IMG/VR virus record: IMGVR_UViG_3300032061_000004
Coordinates: 1-36,082 of that record
Origin: a virus
Length of the DNA: 36,082 nt
Reading direction: 5' to 3' (one strand)
The position numbers were made by a program, and so were the translations under genes. This document shows positions 2,181 through 32,908 of this stretch, one piece after another. Each line of letters starts with the position of its first letter. Position 1 is the first letter of the stretch. Below the pieces are notes generated by a model, which had not been told where the DNA came from, did no database searches, and saw only the letters and a list, made by a program, of their open reading frames with translations.

Positions 2181-3110
2181 ATGCCAACATTAAAAGAAAT
2201 TGTAATTAAAGAGACATTGAAACAGCCTGAACAAGTTGATAATTTGACGGAAGAAACTCCGATTTTATCAATGCTTGATTTCAGAAAAGCTACACATACA
2301 ATGTCAAATAATTTTGAAAAATTAAAAGCAGTTACCGGCGGGAGCTTTGTTGATTTGGACGCTCCATTAGGTCTTGTAAGCAGCTCTACTGAACTTGATA
2401 CAACAAAATTGATCAAAATGGGCGGTCGTATGATAGTTGGTAAAGACAAAGCGGCTCAATACGGCGGTGCAACGCAATATTTCAATGACCAAATGCCTGC
2501 CGTTTTATCAAAGACCGGTATGGCTGTTGAGTATGACATACTTTACAATAACTTCCGCAAGGTTGCTATTGCTAATAGCAGAGTAACAGATGCAGGCGGT
2601 ACAACAAACGCCTATTCAATTATTGCAGTAAGATTCAAACCGGGCGAAAATAACGGACTTTATCCTAATAATGCTTTCCCTTCTGGTTATTTATTAAAAC
2701 CTACACCTTTGCAGGGCGGTTCACTGCATAATATCGGTAATAATAATTATCCGGGTTCCGGTTATACAAACGGTACAATGGGTTATGCTATGGATTTAGA
2801 ATCTTATTTCGGATGGCAAATAGCCAACGTTGAAACTGTTTGGGCAATCGTGAACGTAAAAGAAGGAAAGATACCGACCGCGAAACAGATTGATACTGCA
2901 TTGAGAAAAATAAGAAAATCTTCAAACACTTATTTATTCATGCACCCGGAAGTAAAGGCATTATTGGTAGATGCCTACAGAGATTACATTCTACCTGCTG
3001 AAGTATCAGTTAACAATATCAATCGTCAATTAAATTCATGGGATGGTACTCCAATTATGGAATCTTATAATTTCCTTGACGGAACAGAATCAAAAGTAAC
3101 CGTATCTTAA
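2181..3110 (+). CDS. Major capsid protein (HK97-fold, GP7/Bbp17-like)
   Basis: 309 residues, the usual size for a capsid subunit without a cleaved delta domain. The ATG follows an AGGA site. The N-terminus (MPTLKEIVIKETLKQ, then ILSMLDFRKATH) and the body (GGSFVDLDAPLG, NDQMPAVLSKTG) look like the capsid protein family of Bordetella phage BPP-1 and relatives. The C-terminal part has the FMHPEVKALLVDAYRD segment typical of the capsid A domain. Both neighbours agree: scaffold upstream and a Bbp16-like cement protein 13 bases downstream. The family identity is from pattern memory only; the capsid role is very likely. Confidence 0.88.
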   Translation: MPTLKEIVIKETLKQPEQVDNLTEETPILSMLDFRKATHTMSNNFEKLKAVTGGSFVDLDAPLGLVSSSTELDTTKLIKMGGRMIVGKDKAAQYGGATQYFNDQMPAVLSKTGMAVEYDILYNNFRKVAIANSRVTDAGGTTNAYSIIAVRFKPGENNGLYPNNAFPSGYLLKPTPLQGGSLHNIGNNNYPGSGYTNGTMGYAMDLESYFGWQIANVETVWAIVNVKEGKIPTAKQIDTALRKIRKSSNTYLFMHPEVKALLVDAYRDYILPAEVSVNNINRQLNSWDGTPIMESYNFLDGTESKVTVS

Positions 3111-3537: not shown

Positions 3538-4485
3538 ATGAAAATATCAGCTCCTAATAATCTTCGAAATAGTTTAGAAAATATTGGTTCAGGTGTACTC
3601 CCAATAGCTGGAAATATTTGGTTTGTTGATGGATGGAAATCAGCTTCCGGCGATGGCAGTTCTTGGGATACTGCATTTAATACAATGGCAGAAGCTTTCG
3701 AGAATATTACAAGCAATGATGTTATCTACCTTACCGGTAGAGTAACAGAGCAGATCGTTGCTCCTCTTGGAGTATTTGATGTTAGTATAATCGGTGCAAC
3801 CGGCGGGAATCCAAGACAAAGCACAAACAACGGTGCACAAGCCGGATATAGTGCTTATTGGACTTATGAAACAGATAATACAGTTGCTTTGCTTACATTA
3901 AGAGAACAAGGGTGGAACATAGATAATATTTGCTTTGCTCCGCCTGCTTCTACGGCAACAACAGCAGCTGCAATATTAATGGTTCGTGCCGAAACAGCAA
4001 CCTATCCAGACCCTTCACATGCAGTTATACAGAATTGTTATTTTGCAGGTGGTGGGAATGCAATAATTGATTCAGGTGGTGTTGGATTTGTCCATTTGCT
4101 TAATAATAAATTCTACGCTCAAACTGGTTTCTCTCATCAAAACATTGCAGGCGCAGGAATAGCGGCTCCGTTAATGTGGAAAATTGAAGGTAACAGATTC
4201 TTGAATATGGCAAATGGAATAAAAGCAGCTTTTTCACATGCCGTAATAACTAAGAATTTCTTTACAGACGGCGGAACACCGAATACTACTGTTGTATTGG
4301 ATACAGCGGCTGCCGGTGGCGGTGGTAACAACTTTATTATAGACAATTATTTCCAGACAGCAACAGCTAATTTTAACACGCCCGATATAGTTGGAAATGC
4401 TACTGACGTTTGGAATAACATTTCTATTGATGGTTCTGACTTATCCAGCGCAAGCGTTGGACGTGAAGTCGGACAGCCTGCATAA
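3538..4485 (+). CDS. Right-handed beta-helix head-module protein, possible capsid decoration
   Basis: 315 residues with an AAGGAG site. The chain starts with a short helical segment and then a WFVDGWKSASGDGSSWDTAF motif typical of the first turns of pectate-lyase-like parallel beta-helices. Repeating turns follow with Asn ladders (IQNCYFAGGGN, HLLNNKFYA, WKIEGNRFLN, AVITKNFFTDG, NFIIDNYFQ). No signal peptide or catalytic residues are recognised. It is encoded between the cement protein and the head-tail connector, and a terminator follows it. This makes a decoration or fibre on the head more likely than a tailspike; a carbohydrate-binding or host-adhesion role is plausible. The function is inferred from position and fold only. 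Confidence 0.6.
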   Translation: MKISAPNNLRNSLENIGSGVLPIAGNIWFVDGWKSASGDGSSWDTAFNTMAEAFENITSNDVIYLTGRVTEQIVAPLGVFDVSIIGATGGNPRQSTNNGAQAGYSAYWTYETDNTVALLTLREQGWNIDNICFAPPASTATTAAAILMVRAETATYPDPSHAVIQNCYFAGGGNAIIDSGGVGFVHLLNNKFYAQTGFSHQNIAGAGIAAPLMWKIEGNRFLNMANGIKAAFSHAVITKNFFTDGGTPNTTVVLDTAAAGGGGNNFIIDNYFQTATANFNTPDIVGNATDVWNNISIDGSDLSSASVGREVGQPA

Positions 4486-4537: not shown

Positions 4538-4957
4538 ATGAAAAGAATCATATTAATAATTATGCTGTTTTCTAGTGTTTTGTTTGCACAAGATATTACC
4601 ATATACCCAGAAGTTCCGTATTATCATAATACCTTGACAGCTTCGAACGATACGATAGACGTTAGTTTTTCGCATCTTGCTGCACTTGATAAGAATTCAA
4701 TCACAGATTATACTATTTCCATTTATACAAGTGCCGGTGCTGATACTGTAAAAGTTTATTCGTTAAGTGCCGATGACCTTATCTGGTGCCAACAGTCAAC
4801 TTGGGATTTATTAGCTGATACGACAAGTCAATTTATAATTGTTTCTACTACGCCGAAAGAATATTTGATTTCTGATTCAGCCCCTAACATAGTTAGGATA
4901 ATAAGTACAAGTAACGATGCTTCGACTACTATTTTTACAATACAAGGGAAAAAGTGA
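4538..4957 (+). CDS. Small secreted protein with a Sec signal peptide, unknown function
   Basis: 139 residues with a textbook signal peptide: MKR, a hydrophobic core IILIIMLFSSVLF, then AQ with cleavage expected after residue 17 or 18. The mature part is about 120 residues, beta-rich, full of Ser, Thr and Asp (LTASNDTIDVSFSHL, YTISIYTSAGADTV), resembling a single beta-sandwich. It lies alone between the head terminator and the connector genes. Virion proteins do not normally carry signal peptides. It could therefore be a moron acting in the host envelope, or part of the same secreted set as the genes at 5828 and 14,696. The AAAGGATATG context is a good start site. Confidence 0.75.
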   Translation: MKRIILIIMLFSSVLFAQDITIYPEVPYYHNTLTASNDTIDVSFSHLAALDKNSITDYTISIYTSAGADTVKVYSLSADDLIWCQQSTWDLLADTTSQFIIVSTTPKEYLISDSAPNIVRIISTSNDASTTIFTIQGKK

Positions 4958-5508
4958 GCAAATATATCCTAATAAAAGACGAAGTTAAAACACTTCTGAA
5001 GATTACGAATACTGATAGTGATAACGCTATTGATGCGCTATTGCCTATTATGACAGCTCAAATAACTACTTATTGTAAAGATAATTTTACATCCGGTAAG
5101 GTCTGCTTAACTTCTAGCGAAATTGTTTTCGATATGGATAAAACAATAACTGGCAGTACTGATGATAATTTTGAAGATGTTTATTTTTATGAGGAAGATG
5201 TAATTTTAATTCAAGGCTCTATATTAAATGAAGGTCTGAAAACAATACAAAGTATTTCCGATAATGTAATTACAGTTACTGAATCTCTGAAAAGTGAAAA
5301 TAGCGGAGAGACAATTACTATTTCAAGAGTTGATTATCCAGATGATCTAAAACTTGTAATGTCTGAAATGGTAAAAGGTGGAATAAATACACAAACAGGC
5401 GGAAACATTTCTTCATTTTCGCTTGCGGATTATTCTGTTTCTTATTTCGATTCAGGACTTTCGATGTCTTCAAGGTCAATCTTGAATTTGCACAGGAAAT
5501 TATTCTGA
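4954..5508 (+). CDS. Head-tail connector adaptor (gp6/gp15-like)
   Basis: 184 residues, starting at GTG in a GTGA overlap with the secreted protein, so coupled translation is likely. The N-terminus is the helical adaptor motif (ILIKDEVKTLLKITNTDSDN, then IDALLPIMTAQITTYC), typical of connector proteins that stack on the portal ring. A small beta insertion occupies the middle (about residues 60-110), and the C-terminus returns to helices (DDLKLVMSEMVKGGIN). The last segment, ILNLHRKLF, is the usual end of the family. The next gene overlaps by one base and encodes the head closure partner. Confidence 0.8.
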   Translation: MSKYILIKDEVKTLLKITNTDSDNAIDALLPIMTAQITTYCKDNFTSGKVCLTSSEIVFDMDKTITGSTDDNFEDVYFYEEDVILIQGSILNEGLKTIQSISDNVITVTESLKSENSGETITISRVDYPDDLKLVMSEMVKGGINTQTGGNISSFSLADYSVSYFDSGLSMSSRSILNLHRKLF

Positions 5509-5828
5509 TGTTGCCTTATAATAACACAATGACTATACAAGCTAAAGTTAGCACTTCTGACGGCTTAGGCGGTTTTACTGATGTATGGACTACTGTTTCG
5601 GGTTTAAGTGCGGTAACATGCAGACATAGAGAGTTAAACGGTACTGAAATACAGGCGAATGAAAAGAAAGGATTCTCGGCTTATGATAGGTTTTATTGTG
5701 ATTATACAAGCTCAATAACAAATGCAAATCAGATTTTATTTGATGGTTCAGTTTACAAGATACAGAAGGTAAATGACCCACACGATATGCACTTATTTTT
5801 AGAAATCGACACATTGAAGAATAGCTAA
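5508..5828 (+). CDS. Head closure (stopper) protein, SPP1 gp16-like
   Basis: 106 residues in the usual order after the adaptor. The sequence has the small beta-barrel pattern of the head-tail joining family: MTIQAKVSTSDGLGGFTDVW, a VTCRHRELNGTEIQ strand pair, and closing IQKVNDPHDMHLFLEIDT. The protein closes the connector after packaging and binds the tail. One-base overlaps with genes on both sides show tight packing. Confidence 0.82.
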   Translation: MLPYNNTMTIQAKVSTSDGLGGFTDVWTTVSGLSAVTCRHRELNGTEIQANEKKGFSAYDRFYCDYTSSITNANQILFDGSVYKIQKVNDPHDMHLFLEIDTLKNS

Positions 5829-7174
5829 TGAAAAAATTATTATTAATATTATTGCTTTCTAATATCATATTCTCTCAGGTAAAGAAATATGATTTTGATA
5901 TTGTACGAGGGGATAAAACAAATCTCTCTGCAATAGTGCAAGGTGACTATTCAACCTATAAATTAATATTTGTCGTAAAGGCTGACAAAGAATTAACTTC
6001 TGATAGACTTATTGAAAAGAAAAATACATTGGCTGGCGGAACAGGTATAACCGCAACATATAATGGCAAAGTTACTTCTTTTGTAATATCTATTGATAAA
6101 GAAGATACACAAGACTTTACGAATTTAGTTTATTATTATGACCTAACAGCCACATCGATAAGTGATACATCCAATATAAAAACAATATTAACAGGCACTT
6201 TGAATTTGACTTTCGATGTGCAAACGCCATATGATGGAACAGATTTACCGAATAATGCGACACGTTACCTGCCTATTTTACCAGATTCATTTCATGCCGG
6301 AGAATTTATTAAATCTGATGGCACTAATTTTACTGGCGATTCACTTAACGACAAACAGGATGTAATTCCTAATATTCAAGATACGAGCAAGTATGTTGAG
6401 CAAACAGACATTCCAAATATCCATTTAACTGATTTTGATACAAGTGGAGTATCATCATCATTAAAGGTATTGTCTGCATCAAAGTTGACAACTGCAAGAA
6501 CAATCGGCGGAAATAGTTTTGATGGTTCTGCAAATATCCCTTTGTCAAATATTACTCCCGGAAGTGATTTTACACTAACACAAAATGGAATACAACCATT
6601 TACGAGTGTAGCATCTGGCGCAGTTGCTAATACAATTTATATTAAAGATGGCAACGTCGGCATCGGAACGATAAGTCCGAGTGAAGAATTACATATTAGT
6701 AAAAGTCAAAATGCAAACACGAATATTTTAATAGAAAATGCGAATACGGGTAGTGCGGCTTGGGCAAGATTAGAGACAAAAAATGACGCAGGAAAAATTG
6801 GAGGATTTGGTATAGCTGGAAGTGGGACAACAGTTGCTAATACTACATTTATTTATGGAAATGGTAGTCTTAGGTTTTTATCTAACAATGCAGTTGCAAG
6901 TGGTGGAACAGACCCAATTACATTTTATGTAGGTGGCTACAATCAGGAAATAATGCGAATAACAAGCACAGGAAACGTCGGCATCGGAACGAAGAGTCCC
7001 GATTCAACAGCGACAGTGAATGGCAGTGGACATTTTACAACAAATGTTCTCGTAGATGGTAAATTCAAAGCAAGTGATTATGATTTCTCAGCTTGCCCAA
7101 CCGACTCAACAGCAGTTGAACCGGGTCATATTTGGATTGATGGTGCAACGGGTATTCCACATAGGAAATGGTAA
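5828..7174 (+). CDS. Secreted fibre-like protein with NVGIGT repeats, encoded in the neck module
   Basis: 448 residues. It begins with a clear signal peptide (MKKLLLILLLSNIIFSQ). Residues about 20-135 look like the beta-sandwich N-terminal domain found in BppU-type baseplate or fibre proteins (DFDIVRGDKTNLSAIVQGDY). The C-terminal half has two copies of the fibre motif GNVGIGT-x-SP near residues 276 and 383, as in many long tail fibres of Bacteroidota phages. The final DSTAVEPGHIWIDGATGIPH is a typical fibre end. Position between head closure and the gp10-like neck protein suggests a neck fibre or whisker. The signal peptide is unexpected for a virion component; secretion into the host envelope is the alternative. 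Confidence 0.65.
   Translation: MKKLLLILLLSNIIFSQVKKYDFDIVRGDKTNLSAIVQGDYSTYKLIFVVKADKELTSDRLIEKKNTLAGGTGITATYNGKVTSFVISIDKEDTQDFTNLVYYYDLTATSISDTSNIKTILTGTLNLTFDVQTPYDGTDLPNNATRYLPILPDSFHAGEFIKSDGTNFTGDSLNDKQDVIPNIQDTSKYVEQTDIPNIHLTDFDTSGVSSSLKVLSASKLTTARTIGGNSFDGSANIPLSNITPGSDFTLTQNGIQPFTSVASGAVANTIYIKDGNVGIGTISPSEELHISKSQNANTNILIENANTGSAAWARLETKNDAGKIGGFGIAGSGTTVANTTFIYGNGSLRFLSNNAVASGGTDPITFYVGGYNQEIMRITSTGNVGIGTKSPDSTATVNGSGHFTTNVLVDGKFKASDYDFSACPTDSTAVEPGHIWIDGATGIPHRKW
6653..6992 (+). repeat. 19-bp direct repeat encoding the NVGIGT fibre motif
   Basis: AACGTCGGCATCGGAACGA is present at 6653-6671 and again at 6974-6992, 321 bases apart and in the same frame. It encodes the core of the NVGIGT-SP motif. 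The synonymous positions are identical too, which points to recent duplication or gene conversion rather than protein selection alone. Confidence 0.85.
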
Positions 7175-7614
7175 TGAAATTTGAAAAGTGGGACGACAAT
7201 ACATTTATAAGCAATCTCAAGGCAGAGCAAATCCCAAAGGCTTTGAATCTTGCGGGTGAAGTTATAAAGGGAGAAGCTAAATTAAATTGTCCTACTGATA
7301 CATCTAATACTAAAAATTCAATAAACCATAAATTGACTGAAGATTATCAAGCGGTGCAGGTTGGAGTTCCCAGCGATGGTGATTTAGCTTTTTGGTTAGA
7401 ATTCGGAACGGGTATATATGCCGAAAATGGGCAAGGTAGGAAAGATGGTTGGTGGTTTGTAACAGACCATAAAATTAAAAAAATGACACCTGTATATACT
7501 ACCAAAGATGGGAAATTTGTTTATTTCACTCATGGAATGAGACCGCAACCATTTTTAAGACCCGGATTATATAACAGCAAAGAAGCTATAAAAAAAATAT
7601 TTAAGGTAGCCTGA
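7174..7614 (+). CDS. Neck / tail-completion protein, HK97 gp10-like
   Basis: 146 residues from the ATG in the TAATG overlap; an upstream in-frame ATG at 7168 lies inside the fibre gene and is less likely. The family signature is clear: helical N-terminus (IPKALNLAGEVIKGEAKLNC), conserved PTDTSNTKNSI, then VGVPSDGDLAFWLEFGTG, and the near-terminal GMRPQPFLRPG. Members connect the closed head to the tail terminator. The gene is followed with a one-base overlap by the tail terminator gene, the standard order. Confidence 0.86.
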   Translation: MKFEKWDDNTFISNLKAEQIPKALNLAGEVIKGEAKLNCPTDTSNTKNSINHKLTEDYQAVQVGVPSDGDLAFWLEFGTGIYAENGQGRKDGWWFVTDHKIKKMTPVYTTKDGKFVYFTHGMRPQPFLRPGLYNSKEAIKKIFKVA

Positions 7615-8036
7615 TGATTCCTGAATTACAAACGGCAATAGTTAGTCGAGTACTGACGGGAACAAATGATTTCAAGACCGCAATCAGTTCTAAATTTTAT
7701 TTTGCGATTGCTCCAATAGGAACGTCCGGCAAATATGCGATACTTTCAGACGTAACGAACCCTAATTTTATTGATACAGTAAGCTTGCATGAAGAATGTT
7801 ATTTCCAGATTGCTATTTATGAGACTTCGACAAGTGATGTTATGAGCACAAGCGGAGTATACGATGCCGTGACTAAATTGAAAGCTTTATTTCATGAAAA
7901 AAGTTCATTTACAATAACTGGATACAATCTAATTACCTTGAGAAGATTAAATACGATCGGCCCAAGACGAACGGAATTAAATAACGGTTATATGATAATT
8001 CTAAATTATTATGCAATGTTAGAAAAAGGAAGATAA
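7614..8036 (+). CDS. Tail terminator protein, DUF3168-like
   Basis: 140 residues. The N-terminus (IPELQTAIVSRVLTG) and the strand pattern YAILSDVTNP, ECYFQIAIYE, DAVTKLKALF, then LRRLNTIGPRRTELNNGYM match the fold of tail terminators (lambda U-like, DUF3168). The protein caps the tail tube and joins it to the neck. Placement directly before the tail tube gene supports this. Confidence 0.72.
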   Translation: MIPELQTAIVSRVLTGTNDFKTAISSKFYFAIAPIGTSGKYAILSDVTNPNFIDTVSLHEECYFQIAIYETSTSDVMSTSGVYDAVTKLKALFHEKSSFTITGYNLITLRRLNTIGPRRTELNNGYMIILNYYAMLEKGR

Positions 8037-8038
8037 AA

Positions 8039-8959
8039 ATGGCACAACAGAACGCTTTAGAAACTCATTTCTGGTTTGATGGGGTTGAAAGACCGATAAC
8101 AAACGTTACCTACGATTTGGACTATCAACCGGAAGATGCAAGCTCCACAGCAACAAGCGGAGACGGAACAGATACAACAACAAAGAGACCTAAGTCAACA
8201 AGTTCAATTACTTATGATCTTAGAGACGCTTTAGGCGCAGAAATATCAAGCGGCACACTTACAGCCGGTCAAGTTTATCAGGTTACGGCTGTAGATACCG
8301 AATTGGCAGCTTATGCAGTTGGTGAACTATTCACTGCTGACGGTACTGAAACAATGTCTGCCGATGACAAAGTAAAACCTTTGGGTGCTAAGTTACATGC
8401 TGAAAATATGTCTATCTCGATAGCAAGTTCAACATCTTACCCGGTTACTGACTTAACTTTTAACGAGACATACGGAGAAGATGATGCAAGCTCAACTTCT
8501 ACCGGTGCAGATGCATATGAGAGTACATACAAGAGAGCAGCTCGTACTTGCGATATAACCATCATAATGGATAGTGCGGCTGCTGATATACTCGTTAATT
8601 CAGCACCTGCAAATAAAGCAATAGTGATAACGCTTGCAAGTGGCAATACAATTACCGGTAATGGTATCTTTGTCAAAAAGTCAAATGATCTAAACGCTAG
8701 AGACGGCGGACTTATCAAAACACAGTATACTATCAATTGGCAGGGAACTCCGGTAAGTACGCTTAACTTACTTACACCTAAACTTAGCAAGGCTGTTAAG
8801 AGAATAGCTAAAATAGGTTCGAGCACAAACAAAGAACAAACTGGAAACGGAATTATATTTACAACATCATTCACAGCAAGTCCAATGTCCGGCGGTTTAA
8901 TTCCTGTTACTCAGACAATGACATGGCAAGGCTCTGTCACTGATGCGGTGGCTAATTAA
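8039..8959 (+). CDS. Major tail tube protein with an internal duplication
   Basis: 306 residues. Two halves align by eye: PEDASSTATSGDGTDTTTKR near residue 30 and EDDASSTSTGADAYESTYKR near residue 150, each preceded by VTYDLDY or LTFNETY. The chain is rich in Ser, Thr, Ala and beta strands as expected for a tube protein, and the C-terminus (MSGGLIPVTQTMTWQG) matches tail tube proteins. Single-domain tail tubes are about 150 residues, so this is a fused pair that may form trimeric rings from double subunits. It is followed immediately by the tail chaperone pair. Confidence 0.78.
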   Translation: MAQQNALETHFWFDGVERPITNVTYDLDYQPEDASSTATSGDGTDTTTKRPKSTSSITYDLRDALGAEISSGTLTAGQVYQVTAVDTELAAYAVGELFTADGTETMSADDKVKPLGAKLHAENMSISIASSTSYPVTDLTFNETYGEDDASSTSTGADAYESTYKRAARTCDITIIMDSAAADILVNSAPANKAIVITLASGNTITGNGIFVKKSNDLNARDGGLIKTQYTINWQGTPVSTLNLLTPKLSKAVKRIAKIGSSTNKEQTGNGIIFTTSFTASPMSGGLIPVTQTMTWQGSVTDAVAN

Positions 8960-9339
8960 TGGACTTAATTCTAGGTAAGAGAAAATATAAACTTTCAGCT
9001 TGTAAGGTCTTTGATAGTTATCAACTTGAGACTTTACAGGCTGGTCTTGAATTACCGCAGAAAGATGTTCCGGTCACAGTAGAACAAAGTGAAAATATGA
9101 TGCTGGTCTTTATCAAGACTATAAATATTAGTCTAAAAGCTACATGGATAGACATTCCTTTATGGAAGAAATTATTTTATTTGAAGTACAAGAAATTTAC
9201 GAAAGATCAATCTGTGTTTTTGTTAAAGAACATTGCATCAAAAGATTTACCTGTTATATACGATTATGTTTCATATGATTTGAACGGATATAAAAAAAAA
9301 GTAGTGGAAAGTCCGGGAAGCCAATTGGACGAGAAGTAA
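8959..9339 (+). CDS. Tail assembly chaperone, G protein
   Basis: 126 residues, the unshifted product of the chaperone pair. It lies between the tube and tape measure genes, where nearly all siphoviruses have this gene. The N-terminal region contains a short YKLSACKVFDSYQLETLQ segment and helices to residue 105. At 9292-9300 nine As (codons 112-114) form the slip site; the unshifted ribosome continues for 12 more codons to TAA 9337. G and the frameshifted GT product bind the tape measure protein and recruit tube subunits. Confidence 0.83.
   Translation: MDLILGKRKYKLSACKVFDSYQLETLQAGLELPQKDVPVTVEQSENMMLVFIKTINISLKATWIDIPLWKKLFYLKYKKFTKDQSVFLLKNIASKDLPVIYDYVSYDLNGYKKKVVESPGSQLDEK
9294..9300 (+). 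promoter_or_regulatory. Programmed -1 ribosomal frameshift site A_AAA_AAA
   Basis: In the G frame the codons are TAT AAA AAA AAA GTA, giving the slippery heptamer A AAA AAA followed by G. A slip back by one base puts the ribosome into an open frame from 9300 to TAA 9588-9590 with no stop. The extension has normal amino-acid content. This is the conserved arrangement of tail chaperone genes. I did not find a clear downstream stem-loop; a long A run may be sufficient. Confidence 0.85.
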
Positions 9340-9590
9340 CCAAACAGTTAATCTGTTTACATTATTCAAATGAAGTAACTTTTAGCACATATGAAGATTG
9401 GTTAAAAAAGATTTCTGTAAAAGATTTTTACTCAATGAGATTCGCAATATTTAACAATGCTTACCTAAACGGTGAGTGTTCAGGGATGGTTAAAGATGCC
9501 TTTCAATATCAAACAGACGAAGAACAACAAGACGAATTTGAATCTCAAATCCAACACTATAAAAAACTTGGTTATTTTAAGGAAAACTAA
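9300..9590 (+). CDS. Tail assembly chaperone, T extension made by -1 frameshift
   Basis: This frame has no start of its own and is reached by the slip at 9294-9300. It adds about 96 residues (beginning SSGKSGKPIGREVTKQLICL) to the first 114 residues of G, giving a GT protein of about 210 residues. The extension is helical (TYEDWLKKISVKDFYSMRF) and acidic near its end (QTDEEQQDEFESQIQ). It stops in a TAATG overlap with the tape measure gene. Standard gene callers would leave 9340-9589 unannotated. Confidence 0.83.
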   Translation, partial: SSGKSGKPIGREVTKQLICLHYSNEVTFSTYEDWLKKISVKDFYSMRFAIFNNAYLNGECSGMVKDAFQYQTDEEQQDEFESQIQHYKKLGYFKEN

Positions 9591-12187
9591 TGCCTGACAC
9601 TGGACAAAATTTCGGTACTGCTTATGTAGAATTGCGACTTTCTACTGATAAGATGAAGTCTGACTTTGATAAGGCCAAGACAGATGTTAAAAAATCTGCA
9701 ATTACTATTGAAGATACTTTTAAGAAAGCGAAATTAAAGTTTGACACCGACTTTGCAAAAATGAAATTAAAAGATTTGCAAGGAGAAGCAAAAAAACTTC
9801 GTGCCGAATTTGAGAGAAAGAAAATCAACCCTAATATTTCAGTAGCTTCTTTAGATTTAACGAAACAAAAACTTGAAAAGGTAGTAGGCGCATTAAGAAC
9901 CGCAGGTATGGCAAGCGAAGACGTAGGGCAAAAAGTAAATTGGCTCGGTCGTTCTATGGAAAGAATGTTTGCCAGAATCGGTGTTTTATACGCACTTAAA
10001 AAAGCTTTTGATTTTGGTAAAGCGATAATAAACGCTGCTGCTGATTTTGAAGCATTAAGAACCAGGTTAACTTCTTTATATGGTTCAGCGGAGAAAGCAA
10101 GTGATGTATTTAACCAATTCAAACAGATAGCCGCTACTACTCCTTATTCATTAAAAGGTGTCGTGGAAGCCGGAGCCACAATAAAAGCTTTTGGCATGGA
10201 TGCAGAGAAGACATTAAAGCCGGTAACTGATTTAGCCGCATTTATGGGTGTTGATGTTGTAGAAGCTGCTTCTGCTGTCGGTCGTGCATTCGCGGGTGGT
10301 GTTGGTGCTGCGGACGTATTAAGAGAAAGGGGCGTTCTTAATCTTATCAAATCTTTCAAAGGGGTAACTGATTTAACCAAGTTAACACTACCGGAATTTA
10401 GAAAAGCTTTAATTGAAGCAATGCAAGACCCTGCTGCCGGAATAGCCGGATCAACTACAAGACTAAGTAAAACATTTAGCGGTGCAGTTTCAAATATGGG
10501 CGATGCGATAGAGAATTTTGCAGCAACCATTGGCACAAAGATGTTGCCGTTTCTAAATGGGTTAGTACATGGGATTACGAGTCTAACGACAGCAATCACA
10601 CCGACTAACTCTGCACTTGAAGAAACAAAACGAAAAGCATCAGAGCAAGCGGCTAAATTTGATTTGTTGACTTCTCGTTATATTACTTTACGTGAAAATA
10701 CCAACAAAACAAAAGCTGAACAGAAATTATATATAGGCACAATAAACGATTTACAGAGACTATACCCTAATTATCTAAAAAACATAAACTTGCAAGCTGA
10801 CAGTTTAGATAAAGTAAGAATAGCTTTCATGGATGCAAGAACCGAGCTTAATAATTATTTGCAAGATTTAATTAAGTTGGCAATAATTGATAAGAATAAA
10901 GATCAATTTGTGAATTTGGGTGTTTCTATTGCCGAAGCTACAACAAGATTAACCGACTTAAAATCTGAAAGTGATAGATTATCAAAGGGTATTCCGGGAA
11001 CTGGTAGGCAGCTTGTTCTTAGGTTGACAGGTGAATCGGATAAAGAATATGCCAAACGTTTGAAAGACTTCACTGATAATGCTATAAAAGTACAACAGGA
11101 AAAAATAAAAAAATTATCAGAGCAACAGAAACAAATAGAAGATGTAATAAACAAGACTACCGATACTTTAACTGGTGGTAGTGCTCCGACAAATTCATCT
11201 TCCGGTACTGATAATAATACCGTGACTGATAATAAACCTATATTAGATGCTCAAAAGAAATATTATGATCAAGTAAAATTCTTAGATTCAAATTATTCTA
11301 AATTTTTAACAGAACAAAATCAAAAAGAAGTTGCTGACTTAAAAAAAGTTTTAGGCGATAAGTTTAACGAGAAATTGTTCTGGACACAAAAAGAAAAACA
11401 ATTAGCTAAAGATTATGCTGATTGGTTAAGATCATATTTGAAAGATAAAACAGGCGGACAAGATTTATTAAATTCCGGTGGCGGGTTAACTGCAAACGCT
11501 CCATTACCGGAATCAATGAAAAGTAGTGGAATACCCAAAACATTAAAGGGCGTTCAGCAACCTGATAAACCGCCCTTGTACACACAAAAACAATTAGATC
11601 AACAACAGCGGGAATGGGAAGATAACAATCATTTTTTAGTATCAAGTTTACAAGACAGTATGAACATAATTCAGGGAAACTTTCATTCACTTTGGCAAGG
11701 TGTATTTGGTGAAGCCAACTCAGTATTTGAACAAATAGCGGAAATGATAGCTACTAAATTAGCAATGAGCGGGATATCTTCATTAATTGGTCTCATATTT
11801 GGTGGTGCTGCAACTGTCGCAACCGGTGGAGCTGCTGCGCCCGCTGTTGCGGCTGGCGGACTTGTTTCTTTCGCTGCTATGGGAGGTTCCGTTATGGCTG
11901 GTACTCCGTATATAGTTGGGGAAAAAGGTCAAGAACTATTTATCCCAAATACAAGCGGATATATCATTCCGAACAATCAATTAAACAATGCAACTGGTAA
12001 TAATTCAGGCATTGAAAAAAGGCTTGATAATCTAACACAAAATTTTAGGATGTTCAGAATGAACATGTTAGAAAATAGCCTTAATGGTAAAAATAAAATT
12101 AATGTTTCTGTAAATGGTAATATAGATAATAACGTGATACGACTCGCTAACGATAAATCAAACAAACAATATAGGAGAACAAGTTGA
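9590..12187 (+). CDS. Tail tape measure protein
   Basis: 865 residues, the second largest protein in the window and directly after the tail chaperones. The N-terminus (TAYVELRLSTDKMKSDFDKA) and coiled regions to residue 130 are typical. Residues about 140-330 hold the tape measure domain (AADFEALRTRLTSLYGSAEK; AFGMDAEKTLKPVTDLAAFM). Residues 350-560 are helical coiled coil, with a Gly/Ser/Asn linker near 530. A hydrophobic stretch at about 715-770 leads to the motif TPYIVGEKGQELFIPNTSGY near 772, common at tape measure ends. By the usual relation of about 0.15 nm per residue, the tail would be near 130 nm long. Confidence 0.92.
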   Translation: MPDTGQNFGTAYVELRLSTDKMKSDFDKAKTDVKKSAITIEDTFKKAKLKFDTDFAKMKLKDLQGEAKKLRAEFERKKINPNISVASLDLTKQKLEKVVGALRTAGMASEDVGQKVNWLGRSMERMFARIGVLYALKKAFDFGKAIINAAADFEALRTRLTSLYGSAEKASDVFNQFKQIAATTPYSLKGVVEAGATIKAFGMDAEKTLKPVTDLAAFMGVDVVEAASAVGRAFAGGVGAADVLRERGVLNLIKSFKGVTDLTKLTLPEFRKALIEAMQDPAAGIAGSTTRLSKTFSGAVSNMGDAIENFAATIGTKMLPFLNGLVHGITSLTTAITPTNSALEETKRKASEQAAKFDLLTSRYITLRENTNKTKAEQKLYIGTINDLQRLYPNYLKNINLQADSLDKVRIAFMDARTELNNYLQDLIKLAIIDKNKDQFVNLGVSIAEATTRLTDLKSESDRLSKGIPGTGRQLVLRLTGESDKEYAKRLKDFTDNAIKVQQEKIKKLSEQQKQIEDVINKTTDTLTGGSAPTNSSSGTDNNTVTDNKPILDAQKKYYDQVKFLDSNYSKFLTEQNQKEVADLKKVLGDKFNEKLFWTQKEKQLAKDYADWLRSYLKDKTGGQDLLNSGGGLTANAPLPESMKSSGIPKTLKGVQQPDKPPLYTQKQLDQQQREWEDNNHFLVSSLQDSMNIIQGNFHSLWQGVFGEANSVFEQIAEMIATKLAMSGISSLIGLIFGGAATVATGGAAAPAVAAGGLVSFAAMGGSVMAGTPYIVGEKGQELFIPNTSGYIIPNNQLNNATGNNSGIEKRLDNLTQNFRMFRMNMLENSLNGKNKINVSVNGNIDNNVIRLANDKSNKQYRRTS

Positions 12188-13953
12188 GTTATACAACTAC
12201 GATAACGTTCTCGGAAGAAAAATTAAATAACGAACCCGATTTAATACAAGTTATTTTGATTTTTACTCATGATTTAGCAGGTAGTAATCGTTCATGGAAT
12301 GCGGAAGATTATGGATTAAGAATCACAAACTACGGTGAGTTAGAAATCAAATATGAACTAGAAGATGCTTTCATGGCTCCCGGAATTTATGAATTAGCAA
12401 TTGGCGATTCAAATGGCATACTCGATAATTTATTTTTTGGGACTGATGCAATAGCACTGGCAACTGATAAGAGAGCAACAATAACCTTAAAAATAAATGG
12501 AGTAATAAAATATCAAGGGACTATCTTAGAAGATTCTATAATTTTTGATGAAGCACTATATAATTTTAATCTGAAATTTTCGCCTCAAACTGAAATACTC
12601 AATAATACTATGGTTTTTAATGATGCCGGGAGCCATACTTTTTATATAGCTTCATTCACCGATTTACCACAATTAAATTCAGTATATTCTAATAATAGTA
12701 GCCATTTTCAGGTATTGAGGACTATGCAAGTGGGAAGTACCGGAAGATTTGTAACTAACAGAATATCGGGTACAAATGAACCATTGTCGGCAGACTATCT
12801 TACAAAAGTTTCTGGCAATGGAGATTCATCTTATCCTTATAACAGGTGGTGGTATGGGAATGGGTTCAATCAATTCGATTTAGAGTCTACGTCTAAATAT
12901 GCAATTACTGAAATTCTTGAATTAGTTTTTCAAGTATTGAACTCATCAATCTCATATTCAGGCGGTGATATACAAATAATACACGACTGGGAGATGAAAG
13001 CAAGCAGAGATTCAGACGAATGCTATTTGAATAACATTATATTTGAAGAAATTTATCAAAGTGCAAACGAATTATTTTTTGATGATACATTTGGAGTTAA
13101 AAATTTAGGCGATGTTCTTAGAAAATTAGCAATTGATTGGGGCTCATTCACAGGATTAATAAGTTATAACAAGGCATTTTTCAAAAAATTATTTCATTAT
13201 AATAGTTCCAATTTACAAGATGTTATTGTAGATAACAGACAGAAAGGTTATAAGTATGAATTAATTAGATATATCAAAATAGATACTGGCATTTCTTCTC
13301 CTAATGAGCCTTACCAGTTTGGAGATTATACGGATTCACAAAACCAAACAATAGAAAGAAAAACAATACCCGGCTTTTTTGTTGTTAGTGGGTCAAGTGG
13401 AACAAATATACAAGCAGTCATTTCAAGAAGTGATACGTTCACATTCGATCATAATTCAGTTATCAGTTCTCCACCATCAGAAAATGATATTTATTCAAAT
13501 AATGGTTCTGAATTTAAAGTAATTGGGACTACATTCGGATATGGTGATACAGAACGAAGAATAACAGCTATAAGAGTAACGGGGGCTAATGATCCAGATG
13601 CTTCCGGTACGCTTACAAAAGTTTCTGGAGATGGTGATGCAACCTACACCTATGCAAGTTATGGTGATGCAGATGGTACTTATTCAATTTTTCAAATTAG
13701 AGACCCATATTTATATTTAAGTGGCTATGAAAATGAATTCAAAGATAGTGGCGATTTATTAGGCGCATTTTGGTATTATTGGAGAGGTAATTTACAAAGT
13801 TGTCGAGTAGATAAATTGACATTACGTGGGATAAATTATGATTTTTTGAAAGATTTTAATTATAATGGTAGTAAATATCAACCAATTGGTATGAAATTTA
13901 ATTTTGCTGAAAATAGAACAGAGTGCAATGCTATCTATCTTGGTGAGTTATGA
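12184..13953 (+). CDS. Baseplate / tail-tip protein with a duplicated Y-x-NN domain
   Basis: 589 residues starting at TTG, chosen because a strong AGGAG lies eight bases upstream and the stop of the tape measure overlaps it. The N-terminal 150 residues are beta-rich, like a distal tail or hub domain. Two copies of a small domain found widely in phage tail proteins follow: near 165-215 (YSNNSSHFQVLR ... TKVSGNGDSSYPY) and near 430-490 (YSNNGSEFKVIG ... TKVSGDGDATYTY). In between is a helical and mixed region (about 235-350). Its place after the tape measure suggests the tail hub or adhesion device; the exact role is unknown. Confidence 0.62.
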   Translation: MSYTTTITFSEEKLNNEPDLIQVILIFTHDLAGSNRSWNAEDYGLRITNYGELEIKYELEDAFMAPGIYELAIGDSNGILDNLFFGTDAIALATDKRATITLKINGVIKYQGTILEDSIIFDEALYNFNLKFSPQTEILNNTMVFNDAGSHTFYIASFTDLPQLNSVYSNNSSHFQVLRTMQVGSTGRFVTNRISGTNEPLSADYLTKVSGNGDSSYPYNRWWYGNGFNQFDLESTSKYAITEILELVFQVLNSSISYSGGDIQIIHDWEMKASRDSDECYLNNIIFEEIYQSANELFFDDTFGVKNLGDVLRKLAIDWGSFTGLISYNKAFFKKLFHYNSSNLQDVIVDNRQKGYKYELIRYIKIDTGISSPNEPYQFGDYTDSQNQTIERKTIPGFFVVSGSSGTNIQAVISRSDTFTFDHNSVISSPPSENDIYSNNGSEFKVIGTTFGYGDTERRITAIRVTGANDPDASGTLTKVSGDGDATYTYASYGDADGTYSIFQIRDPYLYLSGYENEFKDSGDLLGAFWYYWRGNLQSCRVDKLTLRGINYDFLKDFNYNGSKYQPIGMKFNFAENRTECNAIYLGEL

Positions 13954-14699
13954 TACAAATGAATGAAAGTATATTCGGAAGCGAAGGGCCAAAATTCACT
14001 TATAATTTAGGTGTGGCAGATATAGAGTTCACAGTGAACGCAACTACAAATATTTGCAGTACATCATCGGCTCATGGTCTGTTTAATAAAGAAATAATAA
14101 TGCTTTCTTCTACCGATACTTTACCTGACCCCTTAGAAACTACTACTTATTATTATGTGCTTTATTTAAGTACGACAACATTTAAGATTTCTGAAACACC
14201 GAACGGTGCAGAAATAGATATTACTGATATCGGAACAGGAACACATAGTCTTAAATCGGAATACACGGTTTCCCTAAATAATTGGGTAGATATGCAATCT
14301 GAACCTGATGGAGATACTACCTTGACAATAGAGTCTCAATTACAAGTCGATAGGGATTTCATTGACAGGGGCGGGGATTTTTTAATTTACAGCGGACGAG
14401 TTTTATTATTCAACTATGATAATGTAACTCTGGCAAGAAGTAAGTTCGAAGAAATTTATATGTTCAATAAAAAAAAAGTATATCTTTATAAACATAGAGA
14501 TGGATCGGTATATAAAGATTATGATGGTAATAACGTTCAATTTTATATGACAGTTATTGCAAAAAATTTTGATACATTGGATTATAGAGATTTATTATTT
14601 GTTACATTTAGAAGTCTGAAGGCAGTTAATCTTTCTAATGACTCAGCAATATTAATACAACCTGATGAAATATTCATGGGTGGAGGAATGATAATATGA
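13950..14699 (+). CDS. Tail-tip protein with an FCCH-like beta domain
   Basis: 249 residues, starting in an ATGA overlap. Residues about 25-100 form a domain common in phage tail proteins, recognisable by the S-AHGLFNKEIIMLSSTDTL stretch, the YYYVLYLSTTTFKIS pair and the closing DITDIGTGTHSL. The rest is beta-rich with an LQVDRDFIDRGGDFLIY segment. It lies between the tail-tip protein and the tailspike, so it may link the spike to the tip. There is no signal peptide. Confidence 0.6.
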   Translation: MIQMNESIFGSEGPKFTYNLGVADIEFTVNATTNICSTSSAHGLFNKEIIMLSSTDTLPDPLETTTYYYVLYLSTTTFKISETPNGAEIDITDIGTGTHSLKSEYTVSLNNWVDMQSEPDGDTTLTIESQLQVDRDFIDRGGDFLIYSGRVLLFNYDNVTLARSKFEEIYMFNKKKVYLYKHRDGSVYKDYDGNNVQFYMTVIAKNFDTLDYRDLLFVTFRSLKAVNLSNDSAILIQPDEIFMGGGMII

Positions 14700-17380
14700 A
14701 GAAATTAATTTTCTTATTTTTCTTGTTTACTACAATATGTTTTGCACAAACGAGTGAATGGTATAATACATTTTATACAGACGCTGGCGCAGCAATAACA
14801 ACTGGTACTTTTGAAGTAGTACCATATTTGAATACCTATCCGGCAGGAGCTATAAAAATGACTCATCTCAAAGGAGCTTCATGGAAAGTTTTGGCTCCCG
14901 TAGGAACTTATAAATTATACTACAATGGAGTCGCAGTCCCTTCATATTCTAAAATATTTGTAGGTGAAGAAATACTCGCACAGATAGCACATAATTTTAC
15001 ATCAGATCATAAGTTGCCTTATTCAGGACTTACATTAGATGCTCAGGAAATGATATCAAGTGGCGGCAAAGTTACAAACAGACCAGATTATGCAACTACT
15101 ACGCTTAATGGAGATTCTACTATTTCAAGCAAATATTCAATTTACTCATTTTACAAAAGCGATCTATTGCCAAATGTCCCGACTGTAACCGCCGCAGAAA
15201 ACGAAGCTGCGGTTGATTCTTTTTATAGCATTTATGGTAAGAATGCAACATTGTCAATGAGTCCTGGAACATATAATTTCACTCCCGGATATACTATAAA
15301 CGCAAATGTCTATCTTGAAGATGGAGCTGTGATCAATGATTCAGTTGTCTTTAAGGGAGTGGTTGATGGAACACTCAGTAAGCATTTTGCTACAGCTGTT
15401 AATTTGGATAGTGCTAGTATAAATATTTGTTATCCTGAATATTGGGATGCTGTCGGCGATGGTGTGACTAATGATTCTTTAGCAATCCACAAAAGCATAG
15501 TCTCAAGCACAAATAAAATTTTGAATTTTACTAATGGAACTTATTATTTCGGAACACAGAATGTTACAAACAAAGTATCTATCAATGTAGAAGGAAACGC
15601 AATTTTGAAGCAAGCAACAATAGCAGATAGCGGAGGTTATTTTTTCAAGTTTACAGCTAACGGAAGTTCACTAAGGGGTAATGGTGTAATTGATCTCAAT
15701 AAATCAGCATTTACGTCTGTAACCGGCTATATGAATGGAATATTAATTCAAGCTGATAGCTGCGAAGTTGAAGGAATAACAATAAAAAATCTACCGAATA
15801 AAGGAATAACTATTTATGAGGGCAATGCAAACAAAATAAGTAATGTAAAGATAAAAGATGGTATTTATTACGGTATTTATCTTGATAAAAATAGCAGTGG
15901 TAATACTATTGAAAGTTGCAATATTTCCGCTGATTTTTCAGCAAGGGCTACAATGTTGTTCGCGGGAACTTCTGCTTATTATACGGGTATTTATACAAAT
16001 GGAGATACGGGAACGCCAAATGAAGCAACAAACAAGAATAATAAAATTATTAATAATACCATAAGAATGATTTCTTATTCTCAGTTGCAAAGATTGTCTT
16101 CAAGTTCTGCCGATAGTGCAAAAACTGTCAAAGAGCATGGAATTGAAGTTAGATTATCCCCTAATACTATTATAACAGGCAACCATATTTTTGGTGGAGA
16201 AATGAGTATATCTGCCGGTATTGGTTCAAACCATAGCACTATATCTTATAATGATTGTCTTTATGCTTATGAATGCGGAATTGAGCTTCCAGACGTAGCA
16301 TATACAAGTGTTTCCACGAATACGATTGTCGGAGATTCAACAGGATTAGTATTGAGAGGAGTCTCTGATGATGGTGCCCCTATTGCTTTATATACTCAGT
16401 TTAACGGAGATAATGTATTAACGGGCAACACTATTAAACGAGCGAAATATGCGATTTATAATTATCAGCAAGATGGATTACTTGCAACGGGAAATATAAT
16501 TGATAGTCTTTTAAATTCATCCGGAGGAATTGGGATTTATTGCCGCAGTTCGGATAACCTAAATTTAAGTATCAACACAATAAATTTAGACGGCGGATAT
16601 TCTGGAATGAGAATTCAGGACGTAAATAGATTTAATGTTATTGGAAATATAGTAAGTGGAACTAATGTAACTGGGATTGGTATCCATATTTATAATTCAT
16701 CTGATACTTGTAGCAATGGCAGAATTATAGGCAATAATATAGCCTCAACAATCGGAAACGCCTTTCCGATTCCGGCTTCATATAATACGAACATTTTATT
16801 TGCGGGTAATTATCCGAATACAGCGGATGTTTATAAAAATAATGGCAGCCTTGCTCAAATTGATTCAATTGCTATCGCAGGTATTTTAAGGGCGGCATTA
16901 ATTTCTACAACAGGAAATTTCTCAATAACTAAATCACAGCCTGAAATTGATTTGTTTAACTCATTAGCGGGGGGGCAGACTACATATTTGCAAAATATAT
17001 ACACTGCCGGAAGATCAGTATTCAGGATTTATCAAGGCGGTTATATCGCTTCATTCAGCACGGAAGGGCTGTCGGTCGGGAGCGGTTCGACTCTTATAAC
17101 TCCGCCTACAGGTGGAATTTTTACTGAAGGTGGATTAGCCGGGAATGGCACTTTAAGGGAGACAGTAACGTTTAGTGGCACAGACACAGTTGTTACTAAG
17201 GTTTTAAGTGGATCAGCAATAACTGATTATTATGTCGTCTCACCAGTTTATTCATCAGCTTCTGTTCCTTACAACGCAAATGATAATTTAAGAGTAGTAC
17301 CAACTGCTTCGGGAGTCACTATTAGAAGAAGTCCGGGCGGTACAAGTGATTTGGAAGTAATGATAATAAAAGTTAAATAA
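14696..17380 (+). CDS. Large tailspike with a pectate-lyase-like beta-helix and a Sec signal peptide
   Basis: 894 residues. The N-terminus is a clear signal peptide (MKKLIFLFFLFTTICFAQ). A particle-binding-like region follows (residues 20-110). Near residue 245 the motif EYWDAVGDGVTNDSLAIHKS is the usual entry of the pectate lyase 3 superfamily used by phage polysaccharide depolymerases. Repeated Asn-rich beta-helix turns cover about 250-700 (GNANKISNVKIKDG, GNTIESCNIS, NTIITGNHIFGG). The C-terminal 150 residues look like a trimerisation and receptor end. The catalytic residues cannot be assigned. It probably binds or cuts host surface glycans. The signal peptide is anomalous for a spike and suggests export or a membrane-anchored assembly step. 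Confidence 0.78.
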   Translation: MKKLIFLFFLFTTICFAQTSEWYNTFYTDAGAAITTGTFEVVPYLNTYPAGAIKMTHLKGASWKVLAPVGTYKLYYNGVAVPSYSKIFVGEEILAQIAHNFTSDHKLPYSGLTLDAQEMISSGGKVTNRPDYATTTLNGDSTISSKYSIYSFYKSDLLPNVPTVTAAENEAAVDSFYSIYGKNATLSMSPGTYNFTPGYTINANVYLEDGAVINDSVVFKGVVDGTLSKHFATAVNLDSASINICYPEYWDAVGDGVTNDSLAIHKSIVSSTNKILNFTNGTYYFGTQNVTNKVSINVEGNAILKQATIADSGGYFFKFTANGSSLRGNGVIDLNKSAFTSVTGYMNGILIQADSCEVEGITIKNLPNKGITIYEGNANKISNVKIKDGIYYGIYLDKNSSGNTIESCNISADFSARATMLFAGTSAYYTGIYTNGDTGTPNEATNKNNKIINNTIRMISYSQLQRLSSSSADSAKTVKEHGIEVRLSPNTIITGNHIFGGEMSISAGIGSNHSTISYNDCLYAYECGIELPDVAYTSVSTNTIVGDSTGLVLRGVSDDGAPIALYTQFNGDNVLTGNTIKRAKYAIYNYQQDGLLATGNIIDSLLNSSGGIGIYCRSSDNLNLSINTINLDGGYSGMRIQDVNRFNVIGNIVSGTNVTGIGIHIYNSSDTCSNGRIIGNNIASTIGNAFPIPASYNTNILFAGNYPNTADVYKNNGSLAQIDSIAIAGILRAALISTTGNFSITKSQPEIDLFNSLAGGQTTYLQNIYTAGRSVFRIYQGGYIASFSTEGLSVGSGSTLITPPTGGIFTEGGLAGNGTLRETVTFSGTDTVVTKVLSGSAITDYYVVSPVYSSASVPYNANDNLRVVPTASGVTIRRSPGGTSDLEVMIIKVK

Positions 17381-18207: not shown

Positions 18208-18286
18208 GCATCTTCAAGAATATATTCAGGCTCTCGCAAAAAGCACTGAACCACCGCCACCACCACCGCCCGGACATCCCGGTTAA
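18137..18286 (+). CDS. Small basic ORF with a poly-proline tail, nested out of frame
   Basis: 49 residues. GAGG lies six bases before ATG 18137, so it has a good ribosome site although it starts inside the previous gene. It is basic and helical (EEMVKKICKELSERFKKKTN) and ends in EPPPPPPPGHPG. It stops in a TAATG overlap with the next membrane gene, which supports real translation. Overlapping small genes with a proline-rich second member recall Rz/Rz1 pairs, but there is no lipobox or signal sequence, so it is not a normal o-spanin. Function unknown. Confidence 0.5.
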   Translation: MKKEEMVKKICKELSERFKKKTNKHLQEYIQALAKSTEPPPPPPPGHPG

Positions 18287-18672
18287 TGACTAAAATTTAT
18301 TACATATTAATAATAAATTTGTTGTTAATAGTCCCATCGTTCTTTTATTTTTATGATAGTGCGATGTTGCAATGGTCATTTCATTTAATGTCTTTGTGTG
18401 CATCAAGATTATTTTTGCCTTTATTGTTACTTTATTATTTACATATCAAAGGCATTAGATGGGAGTGGGAGTTTAAGTATTTTATAAAATACTATTCCGG
18501 TATTTTGTTATATTTGCTATTATCATTCATGTATTTCCCTACTTATCTTGGGGATTTACAATTTATTGATAAAAATGATTGGTTCACAGTACCGGCAAAA
18601 TTAGCTGTTTGGACAGTGTGTTTATGTGTAATATTTTTTAATTTAATTTGGTATAAGGATGAAAAAGATTAG
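18286..18672 (+). CDS. Multi-TM membrane protein, possible holin or antiholin
   Basis: 128 residues, mostly hydrophobic. About four segments can be drawn: YYILIINLLLIVPSFFYFY (4-22), the long hydrophobic stretch around LFLPLLLLYYLHI (42-54), YYSGILLYLLLSFMYFP (69-85), and LAVWTVCLCVIFFNLIWY (106-123). It lies in the lysis block and overlaps the lipoprotein gene by 14 bases. No family is recognised; a holin or antiholin role is inferred from company. Confidence 0.5.
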   Translation: MTKIYYILIINLLLIVPSFFYFYDSAMLQWSFHLMSLCASRLFLPLLLLYYLHIKGIRWEWEFKYFIKYYSGILLYLLLSFMYFPTYLGDLQFIDKNDWFTVPAKLAVWTVCLCVIFFNLIWYKDEKD

Positions 18673-18859
18673 TTACATTTTGCTTATTCTCCTTTCTACA
18701 TTATTCTTTTTAGGATGTACTACATATGTTCCGGTACGAGATAATTCACCGCATGAATACACACAAAAAGCGGACTCAATAACCGCAATGCAAAAACAGC
18801 TACAACATAAAATAGATTCAATACAAACAATAATTAAACAAATAAAAGGTGAAATGTAA
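18659..18859 (+). CDS. Small lipoprotein, o-spanin candidate
   Basis: 66 residues with a lipoprotein signal: MKK, hydrophobic core ISYILLILLSTLFF, then L-G-C with Cys near residue 20. The mature protein is about 46 residues and coiled-coil-like (KADSITAMQKQLQHKIDSIQ). A short lipoprotein encoded next to a coiled-coil membrane protein in a lysis block is the layout of outer-membrane spanins, which disrupt the outer membrane with the i-spanin. This implies a double-membraned host. No proline-rich stretch as in lambda Rz1. Confidence 0.65.
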   Translation: MKKISYILLILLSTLFFLGCTTYVPVRDNSPHEYTQKADSITAMQKQLQHKIDSIQTIIKQIKGEM

Positions 18860-32004: not shown

Positions 32005-32808
32005 TTAATTCTCCTTAAACTGATTTATATATTTTTCATTTTTATAACCATCAGGAAGATAAATTTGAAGGTCTTTTTTAATATAATGTTTAACACCAAG
32101 TTTATTAACAAGTTCAAGCATCCTATGAGTATAGGACTTCCAGTCTGTATCTTTAGTCATAAGAAGATAATTAGCCCTGCCAATTTTATAGAGATCAACA
32201 AATTCGTGAGTATGCTGAACTATTTCAAGACTGCTTTCAATATTCAAAGTAGGTTCAAGACTAACCCATGTAAATATTCCGGCTTCATGAAACTTTTTAA
32301 GAGTATCAATCCTGTCTTTAGGAAGTGCTGCGCCCCTTTCCCACTTCAGGCTAAAAGAATCGTCAAGACTTGTAAGTGTACTGGCGAAAGCATCCCTATC
32401 AGATCTAAACAAATCAATGTCTCTCAAAGCTCTTTGACCGCCTTTGGTAAGGGTACAAATTCCAAGTCCGTAATCTTGTAAAGTAATCAAGACTTTACGA
32501 GTAAGGGAATTATCGAAAGGATGGTAAGGGTCTGTCGTGAAAGAAAGCATAACTTGTTCTCTGATTCCATGTTGCTGATATTTTTTAGCATCCCTAATAA
32601 GCAAGTCAAGATAATTCTGTCTTTCTATAGCTCCATTGTCAAAATCAGACCGTGTAATTCTAAGAACCGCCGGTACATAGCAATAAGCGCACTTGTGACC
32701 GCATCCCCTATAAGGATTTGCAGCAAGTTTTGAATATTCACCCGCCTGCCCTTGCGGTGGATAAATTATTTTACATCCTTTTACACTAAATCCGTTTGCA
32801 TCTATCAT
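32005..32808 (-). CDS. SplB-like radical SAM protein
   Basis: 267 residues from ATG 32,808, chosen for AAGGAG seven bases before it; a longer form has no ribosome site. The radical SAM motif is C36-G-H-K-C40-A-Y-C43 (NPYRGCGHKCAYCYVPAVL), binding a 4Fe-4S cluster. The rest of the TIM-barrel shows VMLSFTTDPYHPFD, GICTLTKGGQRAL and FTWVSLEPTLNIESS, features of the COG1533/SplB group that includes spore photoproduct lyase. Its substrate is unknown; DNA repair or base modification is possible. It stands among orphan genes, probably as an accessory gene. Confidence 0.85.
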   Translation of the reverse strand: MIDANGFSVKGCKIIYPPQGQAGEYSKLAANPYRGCGHKCAYCYVPAVLRITRSDFDNGAIERQNYLDLLIRDAKKYQQHGIREQVMLSFTTDPYHPFDNSLTRKVLITLQDYGLGICTLTKGGQRALRDIDLFRSDRDAFASTLTSLDDSFSLKWERGAALPKDRIDTLKKFHEAGIFTWVSLEPTLNIESSLEIVQHTHEFVDLYKIGRANYLLMTKDTDWKSYTHRMLELVNKLGVKHYIKKDLQIYLPDGYKNEKYINQFKEN

Positions 32809-32908
32809 TCTTACTCTCCTTTTTAAGCTTGCCAAATATATTACCCTCAACTACCTTTTTGCCTACTTTTTAGCTCCTGCGTTATGCCTGTGCGAAATTC
32901 GGCTATCC
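32809..32908. other. 100-base gap with a possible weak promoter
   Basis: On the - strand TATATTTG lies before the radical SAM gene and resembles the -7 element, but no TTG is present 20 bases upstream. No ORF or strong hairpin is seen. Confidence 0.3.

Follow-up and report, generated by a model that had tools for sequence, protein, structure and literature searches.

Why would a tailed phage begin genes for virion-module proteins with Sec signal peptides? The question is raised by the virus record IMGVR_UViG_3300032061_000004, a 36,082-base stretch of DNA (the window, analysed over its whole length) that holds a siphovirus-like module on the plus strand. Three genes of this module, named here by their start positions 4538, 5828 and 14696, encode a head-neck protein, a neck-encoded fibre and a spike, respectively, and each opens with a Sec leader (Table 1). 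Textbook virion assembly of tailed phages has no periplasmic route for adhesion proteins. We regard it as roughly an even bet that these adhesins leave the cytoplasm by export, lose their leaders, probably acquire a cyclised N-terminus, and wait in the periplasm until they dock onto virions at lysis.

The original prediction had placed strong signal peptides ending in FAQ, FSQ and FAQ on these genes. The open reading frames (ORFs) lie where it put them and begin with classic Sec/signal peptidase I (SPase I) leaders; the motifs hold, but the Gln is not the last residue of the leader, as the predicted cut precedes it (FA/Q, FS/Q and FA/Q) and places it at +1. Leaders were called with a home-made Sec scorer, not SignalP. 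Among the 52 window genes, the scorer passed only these three and a lipoprotein gene at 18659-18859, against a background of 28 of 48000 shuffled N-termini of other genes (0.06%) and none of 5100 internal windows. By this scorer all three leaders have a positive n-region, a hydrophobic h-region and small residues at -3/-1, the residues there being L-x-A, I-x-S and C-x-A, of which Leu and Ile are less typical at -3. Finding Gln at +1 in three of three has a chance of about 3e-5 at the window's Gln frequency of 3.2%, and cleavage before Gln is the ‘Q-rule’ pattern of Bacteroidetes and Ignavibacterium; under the Bacteroidetes Q-rule, Ignavibacterium album stands at 77% (PMC5837995). A lipobox with Cys at +1 is absent from all three, in contrast to the lipoprotein, and none has a Pfam match to a type IX C-terminal sorting domain at E 0.1. 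As for the start sites, 5828 and 14696 each overlap the stop of the preceding gene, and 4538 is preceded by AAGGA and by an in-frame stop at -6; the next start-type codons lie at codons 33 (4538), 37 (5828) and 45 (14696), within the mature domains. Judged from sequence, the identity of the three N-termini as leaders is well supported.

The cleavage pattern also agrees with the likely host. Searched against the genome collection, the MuF alignment found a sole match, a prophage in an Ignavibacteriales groundwater metagenome-assembled genome (G006), which points to Ignavibacteria as the probable host. Gln occupies +1 in 21 of the 23 structural-module leaders collected from this and other phages, matching the host Q-rule, although the 23 are not fully independent, as Cellulophaga phage cassettes exchange modules. 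The scorer missed two leaders, which were read by eye: that of L028:4941 in G006, with Glu at -4, and that of L011:18865 in G003, with Glu at 6 and Thr at +1. Its cut also falls, in some cases, 2-4 residues before the counted site (e.g., L011:6497 and phi10:1 gp092).

The labels given to two of the genes also fit. A beta-helix match (PF13229, 1.2e-14) agrees with a tailspike at 14696, which follows the tail-tip gene 13950 at the receptor-binding position and combines a beta-helix body with an anchor domain. Residues 19-101 of this spike align with residues 3-89 of the leaderless spike of prophage G151 (35% identity, E 3e-6). The alignment begins right behind the window leader, so the leader appears to be an add-on before an ordinary anchor domain. 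By analogy, the spike is likely a member of the virion. Gene 5828, described earlier as a neck-module fibre, does lie between head-completion and HK97-gp10-like genes and matches tail-fibre PHROGs. No convincing family match was found for 4538 in Pfam or PHROGs, and its weak structure model (pLDDT 63) has no PDB match below E 0.001; the N-terminal domain of 5828 was modelled at a pLDDT of only 50. As both models are weak, no fold is claimed for either protein. Close relatives were absent from the viral contigs when these were scanned with 4538 alone, 5828 alone or spike 14696, and a scan with the two-sequence anchor alignment A8 gave none either.

Relatives that start after the leader, which the original prediction would have counted against itself, are confined to the G151 spike and the 5828 homologues of G388 and G254; L002, G003, G006 and the G388 spike do not. 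The viral contig L002, whose capsid and MuF proteins are 62-67% identical to those of the window, ends just inside a 4538-type gene, of which the leader MKKKIILILVLMSSVILL remains. The virus G003 (L005, L011 and L012) has leaders on its 4538 homologue (48% identical) and on two genes that come after it in the head-neck module; directly behind the tail-tip gene, leaders recur on a 355-aa fibre and on a beta-helix protein recognized by eye. Prophage G006 has leaders on its 5828 homologue (30% identity over 408 aa, E 2e-37) and on the fibre behind its tail-tip genes, and G388 has one on a spike that is not homologous to that of the window. The receptor-binding position is thus occupied by a leader-bearing gene in the window, G003, G006 and G388, with no leaderless candidate in sight; the G151 gene that follows the tail-tip protein has no leader. 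Such mixed retention and loss makes the leaders look like an option repeatedly gained and lost rather than a gene-calling error.

The leaders have diverged between relatives, with 33 of 54 bases identical in the 4538 pair and 33 of 51 in the 5828 pair, yet the hydrophobic core has persisted, as have the cleavage site and the Gln. Under neutral simulation, leader and Gln survived together in 0.25% of runs for the 4538 pair and in 0.11% for the 5828 pair. Both values depend on the home-made scorer and on a rough substitution scheme applied site by site, and indicate an order of magnitude only. INPHARED gave no match to the window proteins and only weak partial matches to L028:4941. The SPase I motif, the Gln at +1 and the persistence of the leader in diverged relatives argue for export of the leader-bearing proteins, one of the options proposed at the outset. 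Two Ignavibacteria prophage lysozymes (L033:6325-6897 and L071:10607-11086) have Sec leaders with Gln at +1 and look like exported endolysins; such phages therefore appear to use leaders for proteins leaving the cytoplasm.

The contrast that had drawn attention to the locus holds up: Sec leaders do stand on virion-module proteins, and they do so in other phages as well. In the Cellulophaga phages phi10:1, phi19:1, phi18:3, phi13:2, phi19:3, phi46:3, Nekkels_1 and Ingeline_1, a cassette at the tail-tip end encodes pectate lyases and fibres; as in the window, these carry Sec leaders, with Gln at +1 in almost all of them. Unlike in the window, leaders are seen only at this receptor-binding end and not in the head-neck module, and there is no spike homology (none was detectable between the phi10:1 pectate lyase and the window spike). 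Leaders are present on all of phi10:1 gp091-gp095 and phi19:1 gp101-gp104. Eleven leader-bearing proteins of tail-tip, pectate-lyase and fibre classes are annotated as structural by tandem mass spectrometry (MS/MS), namely phi10:1 gp091-094, phi19:1 gp101-104 and phi18:3 gp085-087, whereas of the 18 remaining MS-supported proteins in phi10:1 and phi19:1 none has one. As leaders are part of what defines the cassette, the counts are relied on here without a p-value. The MS/MS annotations probably originate from the work of Holmfeldt in 2013. Three of the proteins, phi10:1 gp091, gp094 and gp095, have no start codon in codons 2-70, so gp091 and gp094 must be made with their leaders; the mature N-terminus of gp094 is predicted to be pyroQ-TVEGTVGSDGSLIPYNVSGGLDETAVDTK, and that of phi19:1 gp101 pyroQ-GVAPLVDQVR. 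Together with their leaders, the N-terminal modules of the cassette are shared at high identity among phages of the Assiduviridae, Pachyviridae and Duneviridae, so the Cellulophaga cases are linked. Across these three families the cassette (L074, L076, L077 and L079-L083) occupies differing genome positions, and residues 1-53 of its fibres, comprising the leader and a short mature part, are often >90% identical while the remainder differs.

Export followed by late docking would proceed in three steps. The spike, the neck-encoded fibre and the 4538 protein would be made with a Sec leader, and host SPase I is predicted to cut before the Gln, which the host would then probably cyclise to pyroglutamate. 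In Porphyromonas gingivalis, Q-rule proteins undergo this conversion to pyroglutamate and gain stability from it (PMC10653852). The exported proteins would then collect in the periplasm, apart from the heads and tails assembling in the cytoplasm; accumulation there is suggested by the lack of a lipobox and of a type IX sorting domain match. Once holin and spanins open the envelope, the adhesins would meet the virions, and the spike would dock by its anchor domain as the last component, at lysis. The presence of exported adhesins in virions is supported by analogy; periplasmic storage and late docking we infer, docking at envelope opening being the simplest scheme to fit a lytic phage with exported receptor-binding proteins. 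One likely gain is that adhesins which are sticky or degrade glycans would be inactive in the host cytoplasm and have a protease-resistant N-terminus outside. Periplasmic O-glycosylation was rejected as a reason for export, as leader-bearing proteins contain about as many D[ST][AILVMT] motifs as expected (54 against 53.8), and so were disulphide bonds as a general reason, most leader-bearing proteins having few cysteines.

Several considerations weigh against this scheme. For the window proteins, export, cleavage and virion presence are drawn from sequence and analogy, and docking at lysis is a step that we infer. The mass-spectrometric evidence consists of record annotations, and a co-purified secreted protein is possible. 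Several related or same-host phages, moreover, have leaderless receptor-binding proteins. No Sec/SPase I leader occurs on the examined tail and spike genes of Flavobacterium 11b and FCL-2, Riemerella RAP44, Croceibacter P2559S, Persicivirga P12024S, Polaribacter P12002S, Bacteroides B40-8 or crAss001, and none on the tail genes of phi18:1, which infects the same C. baltica strain as phi18:3. The neck-position fibre gp52 of phi18:1 is leaderless and was detected in free virions (PMC13288928). Spikes or fibres whose role or position resembles those of the window are leaderless in G151, crAss001 (gp22-gp26), Flavobacterium 11b and phi18:1 (gp52 and gp59-gp61), and the G151 spike shares the anchor domain of the window spike, differing by lacking the leader. 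As leaderless phages occur even on the same host, export seems to be an option for some phages and not a demand of the host. FCL-2 does encode a small leader-bearing protein (L088:45363-45806; MKTIVITLLLSISTYSQVGIATTTPTETL) with a fibre-like motif, outside its structural region.

The main alternative, a somewhat unlikely one close to the host-surface modification of the original prediction, is that the proteins, once exported, have their chief role away from the virion. They would serve as adhesins in the periplasm or on the surface, or as free depolymerases, and would block receptors, exclude other phages or clear glycans. This would apply most readily to 4538, which has no virion-type family match, and repeats resembling those of 5828 are found in many Ignavibacteria genomes, within large ORFs. 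Lambda Lom offers a precedent, being a signal-peptide protein encoded among tail genes, although it is an outer-membrane barrel inserted in the host membrane and not a spike or fibre (PMC12309495). Phages of P. gingivalis (Nixviridae) also have genes with Sec leaders and Gln at +1; these are of unknown function, have been proposed to modify the host surface, possibly the outer membrane, and are not identified as receptor-binding virion proteins (PMC10367356). A role outside the virion would, however, leave the phage without a receptor-binding protein at the usual place, and it fits poorly with an anchor domain that the leaderless G151 spike, encoded at the corresponding locus, also has and with the MS/MS annotation of leader-bearing Cellulophaga proteins as virion components.

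Partial export is distinctly less probable. Most of the protein would fold and join tails in the cytoplasm with its leader uncut and a fraction would be exported, the leader being a relic or serving a second role. Once folded, multimeric fibres are beyond what Sec can translocate, and related phages work with leaderless homologues; yet divergence has spared the leader, its cleavage site and the Gln, and leaders stand on entire cassettes of unrelated proteins. That the leader is an uncleaved hydrophobic segment which anchors or trimerises the protein in the virion, another of the original proposals, is very improbable: hydrophobic N-termini do occur on structural-module proteins, but the small-x-small/Gln site is conserved in 21 of 23 leaders, and leaderless homologues keep the anchor domain. 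A start-codon artefact, with translation really beginning behind the leader as it does in some relatives, was rejected as the least credible, as the overlapping and upstream stops fix the starts, no clean start lies close behind the leaders, and for phi10:1 gp091, gp094 and gp095 the codon content contradicts it.

Table 1. Features of the structural module in the window (leaders called with the home-made Sec scorer)
Feature	Position	Strand	Remarks
MuF protein	start 219	+	structural module
Scaffold-like protein	start 1556	+	structural module
Major capsid protein	2181-3110	+	structural module
Head-region protein, leaderless	3538-4485	+	contrast to 4538; beta-helix-like pattern by eye
4538 protein, leader-bearing	4538-4957	+	139 aa; head-neck module; MKRIILIIMLFSSVLFA before QDIT
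Sec leader of 4538	4538-4588	+	MKRIILIIMLFSSVLFA; Gln at +1
gp6-like connector	start 4954	+	
Head-completion protein	start 5508	+	
5828 fibre, leader-bearing	5828-7174	+	448 aa; MKKLLLILLLSNIIFS before QVKK; tail-fibre PHROGs
Sec leader of 5828	5828-5875	+	MKKLLLILLLSNIIFS; Gln at +1
Fibre N-terminal domain, directly behind leader	5882-6277	+	alignment A9; weak phrog_1084 match from residue 19
HK97-gp10-like protein	start 7168	+	
Tape measure	start 9590	+	
Tail-tip protein	start 12184	+	
Tail-tip protein, leaderless, precedes spike	13950-14699	+	homologues in G003 and G151 also precede a spike/fibre gene
Spike, leader-bearing beta-helix	14696-17380	+	894 aa; MKKLIFLFFLFTTICFA before QTSE; PF13229; directly after tail-tip genes
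Sec leader of spike	14696-14746	+	MKKLIFLFFLFTTICFA; Gln at +1
Spike anchor domain	14750-14998	+	residues 19-101; homologous to N-terminus of leaderless G151 spike

The module continues behind the spike with lysis genes on the same strand. Neither a terminase nor a portal gene was found in the window, which is therefore probably a fragment. The lipoprotein at 18659-18859 (+; 66 aa, MKKISYILLILLSTLFFLG before CTTYVPVR) overlaps the 3' end of 18286-18672 and is a candidate o-spanin, and the early-gene half of the phage encodes a radical SAM protein (32005-32850, minus strand; PF04055, 9e-12). The L002 homologue of the 3538 protein is leaderless too. Capsids look swapped among these phages: those at window 2181-3110 and L002:6147-7079 are of one type (63%) and that at G003 L011:2707-3735 is Gp13-like, while MuF is still 64-67% identical. 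At the two ends of one viral contig, MuF occurs with an intein-like insertion (L005:9989-12001, 670 aa) and without it (L011:112-1104, 330 aa).

Virion proteins that use Sec or YidC leaders are familiar from filamentous phages, as in the coat proteins pIII and pVIII, but those phages, unlike that of the window, are non-tailed and assemble at the membrane during extrusion without lysis. No report of Q-rule leaders on virion receptor-binding proteins was found in the open-access papers searched, and a prior mention elsewhere is possible. With confidence a little short of even, we propose that some tailed phages of Q-rule bacteria build their virions in two compartments: heads and tails would form in the cytoplasm, while receptor-binding proteins would mature in the periplasm and join them no earlier than lysis. 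If so, one step of tailed-phage assembly would take place outside the cytoplasm and depend on host Sec, signal peptidase and possibly glutaminyl cyclase, and receptor-binding proteins of Bacteroidota and Ignavibacteria phages would have to be expressed in mature form, starting at the Gln. This would be a new host dependency, and an old assumption could be put directly to the test by mass spectrometry of virions from isolated Cellulophaga phages. In some tailed phages, then, adhesion proteins may reach the virion by way of the periplasm.
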